Shown in pieces: positions 51,214 through 55,082 of a stretch of 55,082 nucleotides of DNA. Made by a program: the position numbers and the translations under genes. The stretch's first letter is position 1; every line of letters begins with the position of its first letter. The notes under the pieces were generated by a model. It saw only the letters and a list, made by a program, of their open reading frames with translations. It made no database searches and was not told the DNA's origin. The stretch is from Gammaproteobacteria bacterium (lineage in GTDB: Bacteria; Pseudomonadota; Gammaproteobacteria; Nitrosococcales; Methylophagaceae), in the NCBI GenBank assembly GCA_029882915.1, contig JAOUJZ010000008.1:1-55082 (forward strand). The letters are read 5' to 3'.

Positions 51214-53625
51214 ATGGTCAAGATCACACAAATTCCAGTAGAACGTTTATACCAGAATTGCGACTCTGAGCAATTTGACTTTTCTTCTACTGAAGAACTA
51301 GAAGTCTTACCTACGATTATTGGGCAATCACGGGCTTTGGAAGCCGTTGATTTTGGAGCCAATATTATTGGTGAGGGCTATAATCTTTTTGTGATGGGGG
51401 CAACGGGAGCCGGTAAATATACACTGGTTAAACGTTTTCTCGACGAACAGGTAAAACAGCGTCCACAGGGACTCGACTGGGGCTATTTACACAACTTTGT
51501 TGATCCACAAAAGCCTTGGTTTGTATCACTGCCAGCCGGACAAGGTAGTCAGTTATGGCAGGATATTCAAAAAGTCGTCATACAGTTGCTGGAGGAACTG
51601 CCTAGAGCCTTTGATGATGAATATTACCGTGGAAGAATAAGAGCCATTGATGAGGCATCTCGTAAACATCGTGTGAGGATGTTTGGCAACCTGCAGCAAG
51701 AAGCGGATAAAAAAGGCATTCTATTGCTGAGGATGCAGGATGGCAATTATGCTTTTGCTGCCAAGCGTAATGGCCAGCCGATGACCACCGAAGAGTTTGA
51801 ACAACTGCCTTTGGATGAGCAGGAAAAAACAGAAGACATCATTGCATCCTTACACGAAGAGTTACAGCATACCATTCTAGAGCTACGTGAGTGGGAACAT
51901 GACAATCAGAAAAAAATAAGTGCTTTAAATGCTGAGGTGGCATTAGAAGTGATTAGTAGGCATGTCAGTAAACTTAAACATGCTTACCCTAATTCAACCT
52001 GTCTACAGAAATATTTTGATGCTATGCAAAAGGATATGCGGGGCAATGTTGATGCGTTTCTAAAAGTAAGTGAAAGCAATGAAGATGAGGCGTCACCAAT
52101 AGGTATTGATAGCTCATTATTTCGCCGTTATCAGATAAATTTGATTGTAGATAACACGGATAAGCAGGGGGCTCCAGTTGTCTATGAAAGCCTACCAAAC
52201 CATCAAAGCCTGTTCGGGTGTGTAGAGCATATGGCTATGATGGGTGCTCTGGTGACTGACTTTAGTTTGATTAAAGGAGGTGCTTTTCATCGTGCAAATG
52301 GCGGTTACCTGATACTGGATGCAGAGAAACTGTTGATGCAGCCATTTGCATGGGAAGGTATGAAACAGGCATTGCAAGGCAAAGAGCTGAAGCTGAACAC
52401 ATTGGAACGGATGTACAGTATTGTATCGACAGTGTCACTGGAACCTGAACCAATCCCCTTGGATGTAAAAGTGATTCTGCTAGGTAATCGACGTTTGTAT
52501 TATCTACTCTATGAACTAGATCCCGAATTTGCCGAATTATTTAAGGTCGTGGCAGATTTTGAAGATGAAATGACACGTGATGCGGATAGCCACCTGTTAT
52601 ATGCTCGACTAATGGCAACGACAGTGCAGCAAGAAAGCTTATTGCATCTTGAGCGTGATGCAGTGTCTCGTGTTATTGAACATAGCGCTCGAACCGCAGA
52701 TGATGCATCCAAGCTTTCCTTGCATCAAGGAGATTTAACAGATTTGTTGCGAGAGTCAAATTACTGGGCGCATAAAGATGGAGCTAAAATGGTGGCCAGG
52801 CATCATGTTGATTTGGCGATACAAAGCCGGATTCAACGTGTTGATCGACAGCGTACACTATTGTATAGCCAGATAGAACGTGCAATCACTTGTATTGAAG
52901 TAACCGGTAAGCAAATAGGGCAGATAAATGCACTTTCTGTTCTTTATGCAGGAGGGTTTAGTTTTGCCCAACCATCACGGTTAACCGCGAATTGTCGTTA
53001 TGGTGAAGGCGATATCATTGATATTGAACGTGAAGTCGATTTGGGGGGGGATATTCATTCCAAAGGTGTGATGATAATGAGTGGTTATCTAGGCACTACT
53101 TATGCCAAGGATAAGCCATTATCAATGTCAGCAAGTCTGGTGTTTGAGCAAAGTTATGGTGAAATTGATGGCGACAGTGCGACATTGGCGGAATTGTGCG
53201 TCTTGCTGTCAGCAATTGCTGGTGTGCCGTTAAAACAATCTATTGCGATCACTGGCTCGATGAATCAGCATGGAAAAGTGCAGGCTATTGGCGGTGTGAA
53301 TGAAAAGATAGAAGGTTTTTTTGATATCTGTAAAAAGGTCAACTATACAGGTGAGCAAGGTGTCATTATTCCTCATGCTAATGTGCAGCATTTGATGTTG
53401 CGTCAGGATGTGATTGATGCGGTTGCTAATCAGACTTTTCAGATCCATGCGGTAGAAACAGTTGAACAGGCATTGGCCTTGTTAACTGATCTGACGGTTG
53501 GAGAGTTGGATGCCGGTGGAAATTATCCGGATGGAAGTTTTAATGCTGCGGTAGCTCGACAGATTCAACTCTGGGCAGATGTACATAAACATGAAAAAGA
53601 AGCTCATCCTGATGATGGCAGTTAA
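51214..53625 (+). CDS. Lon-like ATP-dependent protease (LonB-type, AAA_32 and S16)
   Basis: An 803-residue protein of the Lon-related family that includes E. coli YcbZ. Walker A is at residues 62-70 (GATGAGKYT), followed by a long helical insertion (about 130-300), a second AAA segment with GGYLILDAEKL and LEPEPIPLDVKVILLGNR, and a C-terminal S16 protease domain. The catalytic pair is present: S655 (DGDSAT) and K698 (GVNEKIEG), 43 residues apart as in Lon. It lacks the Lon substrate-binding N domain. No membrane helix is visible, unlike archaeal LonB. Substrates are unknown. Confidence 0.93.
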   Translation: MVKITQIPVERLYQNCDSEQFDFSSTEELEVLPTIIGQSRALEAVDFGANIIGEGYNLFVMGATGAGKYTLVKRFLDEQVKQRPQGLDWGYLHNFVDPQKPWFVSLPAGQGSQLWQDIQKVVIQLLEELPRAFDDEYYRGRIRAIDEASRKHRVRMFGNLQQEADKKGILLLRMQDGNYAFAAKRNGQPMTTEEFEQLPLDEQEKTEDIIASLHEELQHTILELREWEHDNQKKISALNAEVALEVISRHVSKLKHAYPNSTCLQKYFDAMQKDMRGNVDAFLKVSESNEDEASPIGIDSSLFRRYQINLIVDNTDKQGAPVVYESLPNHQSLFGCVEHMAMMGALVTDFSLIKGGAFHRANGGYLILDAEKLLMQPFAWEGMKQALQGKELKLNTLERMYSIVSTVSLEPEPIPLDVKVILLGNRRLYYLLYELDPEFAELFKVVADFEDEMTRDADSHLLYARLMATTVQQESLLHLERDAVSRVIEHSARTADDASKLSLHQGDLTDLLRESNYWAHKDGAKMVARHHVDLAIQSRIQRVDRQRTLLYSQIERAITCIEVTGKQIGQINALSVLYAGGFSFAQPSRLTANCRYGEGDIIDIEREVDLGGDIHSKGVMIMSGYLGTTYAKDKPLSMSASLVFEQSYGEIDGDSATLAELCVLLSAIAGVPLKQSIAITGSMNQHGKVQAIGGVNEKIEGFFDICKKVNYTGEQGVIIPHANVQHLMLRQDVIDAVANQTFQIHAVETVEQALALLTDLTVGELDAGGNYPDGSFNAAVARQIQLWADVHKHEKEAHPDDGS

Positions 53626-53694: not shown

Positions 53695-54132
53695 ATGAAA
53701 CTTAAATCGTTATTACTATCGATTTCATCAATCGGTTTATTGTGGCATGTTGCTACCGTTAGCGCTTTGGCATTGCCACCAATACCGACTGAGCCTATTT
53801 ACTTTGAACCACCAGTAGTTGAAGCAACGGATAATACAAGACAATTTAGCTGCGTTGAATTGGATAATACGATTCGTTATTTACATCCCTATCGATACAG
53901 TTATAAGCCGGATTTCTATCAAGACGATGCAAACAAAATAGCAACTACACTTATTATGTTTGACTCTATTCCTATCGTTGATTCTATTCCAGTTGTGAAA
54001 GGTTTATTGGGTTTTGCCTATTTGGGCTACTCAACTTTGATAGAAGAAAAAGAACAACGGCGTACATTACAGGTAGAACAACAGATTTCCATGTTACAAC
54101 AGCTTAAGGCGGAAAAACATTGTTTTGAATAA
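53695..54132 (+). CDS. Secreted or periplasmic protein of unknown function
   Basis: A 145-residue protein with a clear signal peptide (MKLKSLLLSISSIGLLWHVATVSALA, cut in two parts here by its hydrophobic core at residues 5-25). The mature part begins with a Pro-rich stretch (LPPIPTEPIYFEPP), contains two cysteines (FSC near 53 and the end HCFE) that could form a disulfide, a hydrophobic segment near residues 95-115 (FDSIPIVDSIPVVKGLLGFAY) and a C-terminal helical coil. I chose ATG 53695 with AGGG upstream over a GTG at 53677. I know of no family. It lies before the repeat-protein gene with a 110-base gap. Confidence 0.75.
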   Translation: MKLKSLLLSISSIGLLWHVATVSALALPPIPTEPIYFEPPVVEATDNTRQFSCVELDNTIRYLHPYRYSYKPDFYQDDANKIATTLIMFDSIPIVDSIPVVKGLLGFAYLGYSTLIEEKEQRRTLQVEQQISMLQQLKAEKHCFE

Positions 54133-54181: not shown

Positions 54182-54211
54182 TTGTAGTCTTATCTTCAAC
54201 TCATGTACTAT
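54182..54211 (+). promoter_or_regulatory. Candidate promoter of the repeat-protein gene
   Basis: TTGTAG (54182-54187) and TACTAT (54206-54211) with an 18-base spacer, 31 bases before the ATG. GAGG follows at ribosome-binding distance. The match is moderate. Confidence 0.35.
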
Positions 54212-54242
54212 CGGGTAATAATTTACCACGAGGTATTCAATT

Positions 54243-55082
54243 ATGAGTACAACCATAGATATAAAAGCAAGGTGGCGTGCAGCCAATTTAGAAACGGCAC
54301 GAGAGAGCAGAAAAAAGTGGTATGAGGCTAATTTAGACAATCAACCAACTGAAAGCCACTGGTATGAAATCAGTGATGAAAAATACACACCTACCAAGAG
54401 AAAATGGTATCGCTCGAATCTAGAAATAGCTCGAGCCAGTCGTGCTAAATGGTATGAAGCGAATTTAGATAACAAGCCGACAGAAAAACACTGGTATGAA
54501 ATCAGTGATGAAAAAGTCAGTGAAACCAAGAAGAAATGGTATGAGGCTAATCTTGAAGCTGCGCGTGCCAGTCATGCCAAATGGTATGAAGCCAATATGG
54601 GTGTGGATCAATATGCGGATGCCAAGTGGAAATGGTATCAGGCTAACCTTGCGTTAACTAGAACGCAGAAGATCAAGAAGAAATGGTATCAGGCTAATCT
54701 GGAAGCAGCACGTGAAGGCCAAAAAAAATGGTATGAAGCCAACCTTCAACAACAGCATTTGGATACCAAGAGAAGATGGTATGAAGCTAATCTGAAAGAG
54801 GCTGTTATTGCAGTTAGAGAAACCCGTGCCAAATGGTATGAAGCGAATTTAGATAACAAGCCGACAGAAAAACACTGGTATGAAATCAGTGATGAAAAAG
54901 TCAGTGAGACCAAGAAGAAATGGTATCAGGCTAATCTTGAAACAGCGCGCGCCAACAGAGCTAAATGGTATGAAGCGAATTTAGATAATCAGCCGACAGA
55001 AAAACACTGGTATGAAATCAGCGATGAAAAAGTCAGTGAAACCAAGAAGAAATGGTATCAGGCTAATCTTGAAGCTGCGCGT
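54243..55082 (+). CDS. Tandem-repeat protein with KWYEANL units (3' end beyond the window)
   Basis: An open frame of exactly 280 codons from ATG 54243 to the window edge, with no stop. It consists almost wholly of repeats about 15 residues long, each opening with Trp-Tyr: W26, W40, W55, W70, W84, W99, W114, W131, W148, W163, W179, W198, W212, W227, W242, W256 and W271; W11 begins a divergent first unit (WRAANL). Two forms occur: WYEANLEAARASRAK and the pair WYEANLDNQPTEKH-WYEISDEKVSETKKK. They combine in a 44-residue unit. There is no cysteine, signal peptide or membrane helix. The protein is rich in Lys, Glu, Ala and Arg. No family is known to me; basic YYEAN-type repeats in some phage and viral DNA-binding proteins are a loose analogy. 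GAGG supports the start. Confidence 0.85.
   Translation, partial: MSTTIDIKARWRAANLETARESRKKWYEANLDNQPTESHWYEISDEKYTPTKRKWYRSNLEIARASRAKWYEANLDNKPTEKHWYEISDEKVSETKKKWYEANLEAARASHAKWYEANMGVDQYADAKWKWYQANLALTRTQKIKKKWYQANLEAAREGQKKWYEANLQQQHLDTKRRWYEANLKEAVIAVRETRAKWYEANLDNKPTEKHWYEISDEKVSETKKKWYQANLETARANRAKWYEANLDNQPTEKHWYEISDEKVSETKKKWYQANLEAAR
54447..55082 (+). repeat. Near-identical 132-base higher-order repeats in the repeat-protein gene
   Basis: Copies begin at 54447, 54831 and 54963, each reading AAATGGTATGAAGCGAATTT and continuing alike for about 95 bases or more, with very few changes (for example GAA to GAG). The last two are exactly 132 bases (44 codons) apart. A more diverged copy begins near 54312. 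Units between 54579 and 54830 are less alike. Even synonymous positions agree, so the duplications are recent or kept alike by conversion. Confidence 0.9.

Follow-up and report, generated by a model that had tools for sequence, protein, structure and literature searches.

A tryptophan-tyrosine repeat gene kept at a constant locus in the Methylophagaceae

The last part of the window, as the whole stretch of 55,082 nucleotides analysed here is called, carries the first 280 codons of a gene (54243..55082, plus strand) for a protein built from Trp-centred units of about 15 residues, 18 of which lie in the part seen, and the frame is open past the end of the window. Of 57 Methylophagaceae genomes, that of the window included, 53 carry a gene of this kind, and it keeps the same locus across the 23 genomes in which the surroundings were compared. 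As judged from sequence, the product may be a cytosolic, basic, multivalent array that binds a polyanion, with DNA or RNA as the likeliest ligand, and this reading is given a probability of roughly 0.35; what the protein binds, where it resides and what it does, as well as a helical form in solution, are inferred in what follows.

Repeat array and integrity of the gene

The sequence-only reading had described a repeat protein with a fixed Trp-Tyr pair, an Ala-Asn-Leu core and a period of 14-15 residues. The repeat itself is real, since in addition to the 18 units within 280 residues the Trp autocorrelation of the window protein reaches 10 pairs at lag 15, compared with a maximum of 7 over any lag from 5 to 34 in 2000 residue shuffles. 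The Ala-Asn-Leu core is looser than described. Trp-Tyr is found in 17 of the 18 units, the first one reading R-W-R-A-A-N-L, and the core is ANL in 12 units, ANM in one and SNL in another, with the remaining four reading H-W-Y-E-I-S-D-E. Thirteen of the 17 unit-to-unit spacings have the described length (14 residues in four cases, 15 in nine), but spacings of 16 (one), 17 (two) and 19 (one) also occur. At the nucleotide level, Tandem Repeats Finder reports two 132-nt arrays inside the gene, with 78% and 94% matching. Cysteine is absent from the window protein and no signal peptide-like start is recognisable by eye, both as had been stated.

The window corresponds to contig C26 of the assembly and shares its end point, and extension brings the C-terminus into view: nucleotides 1-333 of another contig of the same genome (G000:C90) hold 110 codons in the same repeat and a TAA stop. 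The first 150 nt of C90 differ from the last 150 nt of the window by a single mismatch, and the full-length protein would measure about 340 residues if this overlap is the true junction, a length that is uncertain because repeats can mislead an assembler. Downstream of the stop follow a metallo-hydrolase-like gene, BamE and a Fur-like gene, assigned by clustering with a tested gene, by profile test and by eye, respectively. Since the frame closes on C90 and is followed there by the downstream neighbours seen in relatives, the gene is intact and split by the assembly alone. A decayed gene or an assembly artefact, the former raised earlier as the outcome that would overturn the repeat-protein reading, is excluded by this closure together with the full-length copies in relatives, isolates included. 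The array was indeed still repeating at the window end.

Across the family, closed frames encode 202-427 residues, except for one piece of 168 residues at an assembly gap. Pooled over 47 closed frames, some of them near-identical to one another, the composition is 6.3% Trp, 5.8% Tyr, 12.7% Lys, 12.7% Ala, 7.6% Asn and 0.6% Gly, with no Cys. The isoelectric point lies between 8.9 and 9.8 (about 9.5) in 46 of the 47, and at 6.8 in the assembly-gap piece; acidic residues make up 11-15% of complete orthologues, and the net charge goes down to +6 in one of them. A full-length protein has about 25 evenly spaced Trp residues, and 779 of 904 aromatic-pair spacings in the closed frames are 14, 15, 17 or 19 residues (122, 384, 218 and 55 cases). 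The units of about 15 residues are of several types, which follow one another in a fixed order to form a super-repeat of about 190 residues. Complete genes from Methylophaga (g3) and from genus g2 contain two copies of this super-repeat; in the window's genus (g1) there is a single copy or a set of rearranged pieces. Array length differs between species. In 55 super-repeats, defined as stretches with a score above 150 bits that span the greater part of the model, a rule by which rearranged arrays are left out, 28 columns are invariant; these include eight Trp, six Asn, four Tyr, four Lys, two Arg, two His and two Leu, and no Asp or Glu.

The core Ala is encoded by all four codons in 1002 units (GCT 298, GCC 247, GCG 162, GCA 116), which argues for conservation of the unit at the protein level, the units being related by descent and hence not independent. 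Codon bias was also considered as a sign of high expression. In G034 the gene has a raw rank of 3 of 48 and, after correction for amino-acid composition, of 6 of 48; in G013 the corresponding ranks are 18 of 46 and 29 of 46. The two genomes ranked give no consistent sign of high expression.

Distribution, locus and upstream element

The gene is found in 34 of the 36 family genomes with at least 90% completeness and at most 5% contamination, and in none of six genomes of the other family of the order. A class-wide sample yielded it in four of 369 genomes, all four of the window's family, and a phylum-wide sample in one of 398, the window's own; among the genomes searched in order, class and phylum it is thus confined to Methylophagaceae. 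Named matches comprise nine Methylophaga records and one pseudomonadotal MAG (10 loci), from a scan with few peptide patterns that detects close relatives only, and isolates with the gene include Methylophaga aminisulfidivorans MP and M. sulfidovorans DSM 11578. The family is called Methylophagaceae here on the strength of these named matches; NCBI taxonomy places Methylophaga in Piscirickettsiaceae. Plasmids gave no match to the protein, and none of 38 pattern matches in viral contigs was confirmed; with only two weak matches in phages besides, a horizontal or mobile origin was rejected.

Four family genomes are without the gene, G022 and G051 (84-85% complete) as well as G029 and G031 (at least 97%). 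G029 (L095) measures 1.1 Mb, is given as 100% complete and has no hexulose-phosphate synthase above the family cut-off; it is possibly a reduced lineage that gave up RuMP methylotrophy. Between its Coq7-like gene and carbonic anhydrase no remnant of the repeat is seen by eye in three forward frames, while the rest of the locus is recognisable.

Formaldehyde can modify the kinds of residue that make up nearly half of the repeat protein: Lys, Trp, Tyr, Asn, Gln, Arg and His together amount to about 46% of the residues in closed frames, and Cys is absent. A protein that responds to or absorbs formaldehyde would fit this composition. It would also fit the absence of the gene from G029, the sole near-complete genome without hexulose-phosphate synthase, an enzyme that is above cut-off in 47 of the 57 family genomes. 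However, one genome is no correlation, all the more as G029 is strongly reduced, and G031 has the RuMP enzyme but not the repeat gene. With one genome that fits and one that does not, the link to methylotrophy is a hint only. Moreover, a stoichiometric sink would presumably be costly and small beside the carbon flux, and this is the least probable of the explanations considered.

The surroundings were compared for thirty loci, which belong to 23 distinct genomes. Downstream of the repeat gene, BamE and Fur-like genes are present in all 23, and a beta-carbonic anhydrase in 21 (not in G000 and G013), with a Pro_CA match in the one tested. In the window's own genome (L032 1-1663, G000:C90) the beta-carbonic anhydrase is missing at the locus, and the best match elsewhere is 36% identical. 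Upstream, a LonB/LonC-like AAA+ protease (51214..53625, plus strand; Pfam AAA_32, LonB_AAA-LID, Lon_C and LonC_helical) is often, not always, a neighbour, and is probably functionally unrelated. Directly upstream of the repeat gene, separated from it by 110 nt in the window, lies a gene for a small orphan protein of 145 residues (53695..54132, plus strand) with a hydrophobic N-terminus that by eye is typical of export. The small protein has no match in Pfam, NCBIfam or PADLOC; the motif L-P-P-x-P-x-E-P-I-Y-F-E-P-P-V-V near the mature start, a C-[YF]-E end and two Cys were noted in the copies examined. Its gene immediately precedes the repeat gene in 22 of the 23 genomes; in the remaining one, G018, it is missing from the locus. 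Where the distance between the two genes was measured, 27 of 28 loci have 73-114 nt, mostly about 97 nt. G029 and G031 lack the small gene along with the repeat gene and keep the carbonic anhydrase; the less complete G022 and G051 lack both genes as well.

The interval between the two genes holds a promoter-like two-block element, TTGT-N19-GTACTATC (54182..54212, plus strand), at a distance of 30 nt from the start of the repeat gene. After one frame at an assembly gap had been dropped, 49 upstream regions (48 distinct) remained, of which 45 hold the relaxed pattern TTG(T/G)-N-GTAnTAT(C/T) and 43 a stricter one; the number expected from mononucleotide shuffles is 0.11, a comparison to be read with the relatedness of the upstream sequences by descent in mind. 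The spacer is 19 nt in 42 of the 45, and the element ends 29-39 nt ahead of the start codon. The layout is that of a promoter, but the match to sigma-70 is poor and a scan for the sigma-70 consensus did not report it. The pattern marks the repeat locus in four of five family genomes searched (not in G018). In six genomes 16 other sites were found, compared with 17 for a reversed control, and therefore there is no sign of a regulon. The position of the element suggests that the repeat gene is transcribed separately.

This bears on another explanation, in which the repeat protein would act at the envelope or membrane surface together with the small exported protein encoded upstream. The close and nearly constant pairing of the two genes and their joint absence from G029 and G031 are consistent with it, as is the richness of the protein in Trp and Tyr, residues that favour membrane interfaces. 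By contrast, the suggested separate transcription, the locus of G018, which has kept the repeat gene although the small one is missing there, the lack, by eye, of a signal peptide and the low hydrophobic moment for a helix (see below) argue against such a partnership, which is considered unlikely.

Known families, structure models and phage arrays

The statement that the unit belongs to no characterised family holds for the libraries searched. Neither Pfam nor NCBIfam gives a match above the curated cut-off for the window protein, and PADLOC gives nothing for it or for one orthologue. For 20 orthologues the best Pfam E-value is 3.2e-4 and every listed family occurs in one of the 20 members; alpha-solenoid families in Pfam (TPR, HEAT, ankyrin and others) are not matched. 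Sequence searches of the PDB give a best E-value of 0.15 for the window protein and no match at E of at most 1 for a profile of 20 sequences, and the phage array discussed below has none either. In PHROGs, phrog_19508 is matched at 1e-9 by three of the 20 orthologues and phrog_37791 by five, while no single stretch of the window protein passes on its own; the matches were taken as repeat composition and membership was rejected. Among the papers listed on the unit itself and on Methylophaga repeat, tryptophan-rich, hypothetical-protein and proteome topics, none describes the gene, as judged from titles and the beginnings of abstracts. The supplements of one paper list hypothetical proteins (PMC6548844).

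AlphaFold models made with 20 orthologues (mean pLDDT 56.1, pTM 0.17) and with the 55 super-repeats (mean pLDDT 62.5, pTM 0.22) both show separate helices, with intervening stretches that often hold Pro. With these values the fold is not established; the helical part of the earlier proposal of an extended helical array agrees with both models, but at low confidence. Over 1101 Pro-free stretches of 30 residues the mean hydrophobic moment amounts to 0.20 for an angle of 100 degrees, compared with 0.32 for 148 degrees. The weak moment at 100 degrees does not indicate a classical amphipathic helix and argues against a simple amphipathic membrane helix.

Phasins and other coat proteins consist of Pro-punctuated amphipathic helices, and such repeated helices occur in lipid-surface proteins. 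By analogy, the repeat protein, which likewise has repeated helical segments with Pro breaks, might coat storage granules in the manner of a phasin or a lipid-droplet protein. However, its moment is weak, no strong amphipathic helix is seen and no Pfam phasin matches the 20 orthologues at E 0.01. Furthermore, PHA synthase (PF07167) is found in none of the 57 family genomes, with the control set positive in Caulobacter, which disfavours a phasin-like coating and makes a granule coat very improbable.

The nearest known thing is found in phages, as W-x3-N-P-E-K-x-R-E arrays (phage CV-1-33; the HNH nuclease of Streptomyces phage Samisti12). A tblastn search against phages returned the two weak matches mentioned above, with E-values of 4e-4 and 3e-4. 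One is gene 20 of Chlorobiaceae phage CV-1-33, a clean 15-residue array of K-W-R-A-E-N-P-E-K-V-R-E-Y-Q-R. The other is a Microcystis phage protein with an A-N-L core, which looks like a pentapeptide array; as pentapeptide repeats have a period of 5 and no Trp pattern, the match was taken as compositional (Pfam Pentapeptide scores the window protein at E 9.4). A search for the phage array gave 27 phage records; at the match, nine of them carry the annotation HNH endonuclease or endonuclease VII, with two phages represented twice among the nine. In two records, one annotated as an HNH endonuclease and the other as a hypothetical protein, the array by eye follows an N-terminus that contains Cys and is itself followed by a nuclease-like part at the C-terminus. 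The W-x3-N-P-E-K 15-mer array (L105 2019-2633, L107 520-1272, L108 681-1394) occurs alone or within nuclease-like proteins, and is spread over unrelated phages and an archaeal virus. Among the papers listed on phage HNH repeats, titles and the beginnings of abstracts hold no description of its role.

The WY units and the phage arrays have in common a 15-residue period, the Trp, an Asn at position +4, a Lys before the Trp and a basic, hydrophilic character; 15 is the commonest spacing in the repeat protein, in which 14, 17 and 19 occur too. Profiles built from 325 distinct own units and from 12 phage units of three proteins align in register. When columns are permuted, 63 of 20000 arrangements reach the real score, and 79 of 20000 do so if the Trp is kept in place. 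Most of the resemblance comes from the Trp, the Asn and the Lys that precedes the Trp. A permutation test at the sequence level on six proteins gave 0 to 10 of 300, and in five of the six the best permuted array scored above the real one. By contrast, the Pro-Glu that follows the Asn (N-P-E) is peculiar to the phage arrays: positions 5 and 6 hold 40% Leu and 30% Glu in the WY units, but 83% Pro and 92% Glu in the phage units. The Tyr after the Trp, the Ala-Asn-Leu core in place of x-Asn-Pro, the super-repeat and the stand-alone chromosomal gene are found with the repeat protein only. It is also without the zinc ribbon or HNH domain of the phage nucleases, and the Cys-containing N-terminus and nuclease part of two phage proteins (P0003 and P0004, not P0001) have no counterpart in it, with no Cys in 47 frames and no such domain in 20 orthologues. 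On balance, the alignment supports a design shared by the two kinds of array, at which they may have arrived by convergence.

Function of the array and meaning for the family

The reading as a polyanion-binding, most likely nucleic-acid-binding, array is preferred because the protein is basic, because aromatic residues, basic residues and Asn are prominent at its invariant positions, and because of the parallel to phage nucleases. The Trp-Tyr units would form a string of short helical segments with Pro-containing breaks between them, along which the evenly spaced Trp/Tyr pairs would stack on the polyanion while the conserved Lys, Arg, Asn and His would contact it, and many weak contacts would sum to one strong, length-tolerant interaction. 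Against nucleic acid as the ligand speak the absence of a recognised DNA- or RNA-binding domain and the neighbours (carbonic anhydrase, a metallo-beta-lactamase fold and BamE), which do not suggest it. The acidic residues of complete orthologues, the net charge of only +6 in one of them, the low confidence of the models, the possible convergence with the phage arrays and the inconsistent codon bias also count against this reading. Of the ligands named in the sequence-only reading, nucleic acid stays plausible, and nothing found here speaks positively for a membrane or a polysaccharide.

Close behind ranks a tentative alternative in which the partner is a protein. Carboxysome and pyrenoid linker proteins such as CsoS2 and EPYC1 are multivalent and gather their clients by hydrophilic repeats with aromatic and basic stickers, and each WY unit could similarly be a short motif for one abundant client enzyme, the array giving rise to a cluster or condensate. 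The multivalent, hydrophilic make-up with evenly spaced aromatic stickers and Lys/Arg, the variation in array length between species and the lack of a confident compact fold in the models are all in line with such a scaffold. The likeness is one of description, and unlike these linkers the repeat protein has ordered unit types and no known client. Indeed, unit order and position-specific residues are fixed across the 55 super-repeats beyond what a plain string of motifs would need, if partly rearranged in g1. In addition, no client is indicated, and the commonly adjacent carbonic anhydrase gene is also present where the repeat gene is absent.

A more far-reaching form of the polyanion-binding reading, regarded as quite improbable, is that the protein is the first member of a new class of modular arrays, confined to a single family of marine methylotrophs. 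Every unit would make one contact to the polymer, the order of the units would set a preference for spacing or sequence, and the whole would serve a methylotrophic condition, possibly formaldehyde stress.

What is new here is a conserved gene without a family model, a solved relative or a paper in the libraries searched, although short aromatic tandem arrays already exist as a kind. Trp is a costly residue, and some 25 of them at even spacing in each protein ask for an explanation. Since the gene is present in named Methylophaga isolates, its function is directly testable, and if the design is common with the arrays of phage nucleases, one answer may explain both. Its occurrence in nearly all near-complete genomes of the family, at a constant locus in the 23 compared and behind a conserved upstream element, indicates that it should matter to these bacteria.
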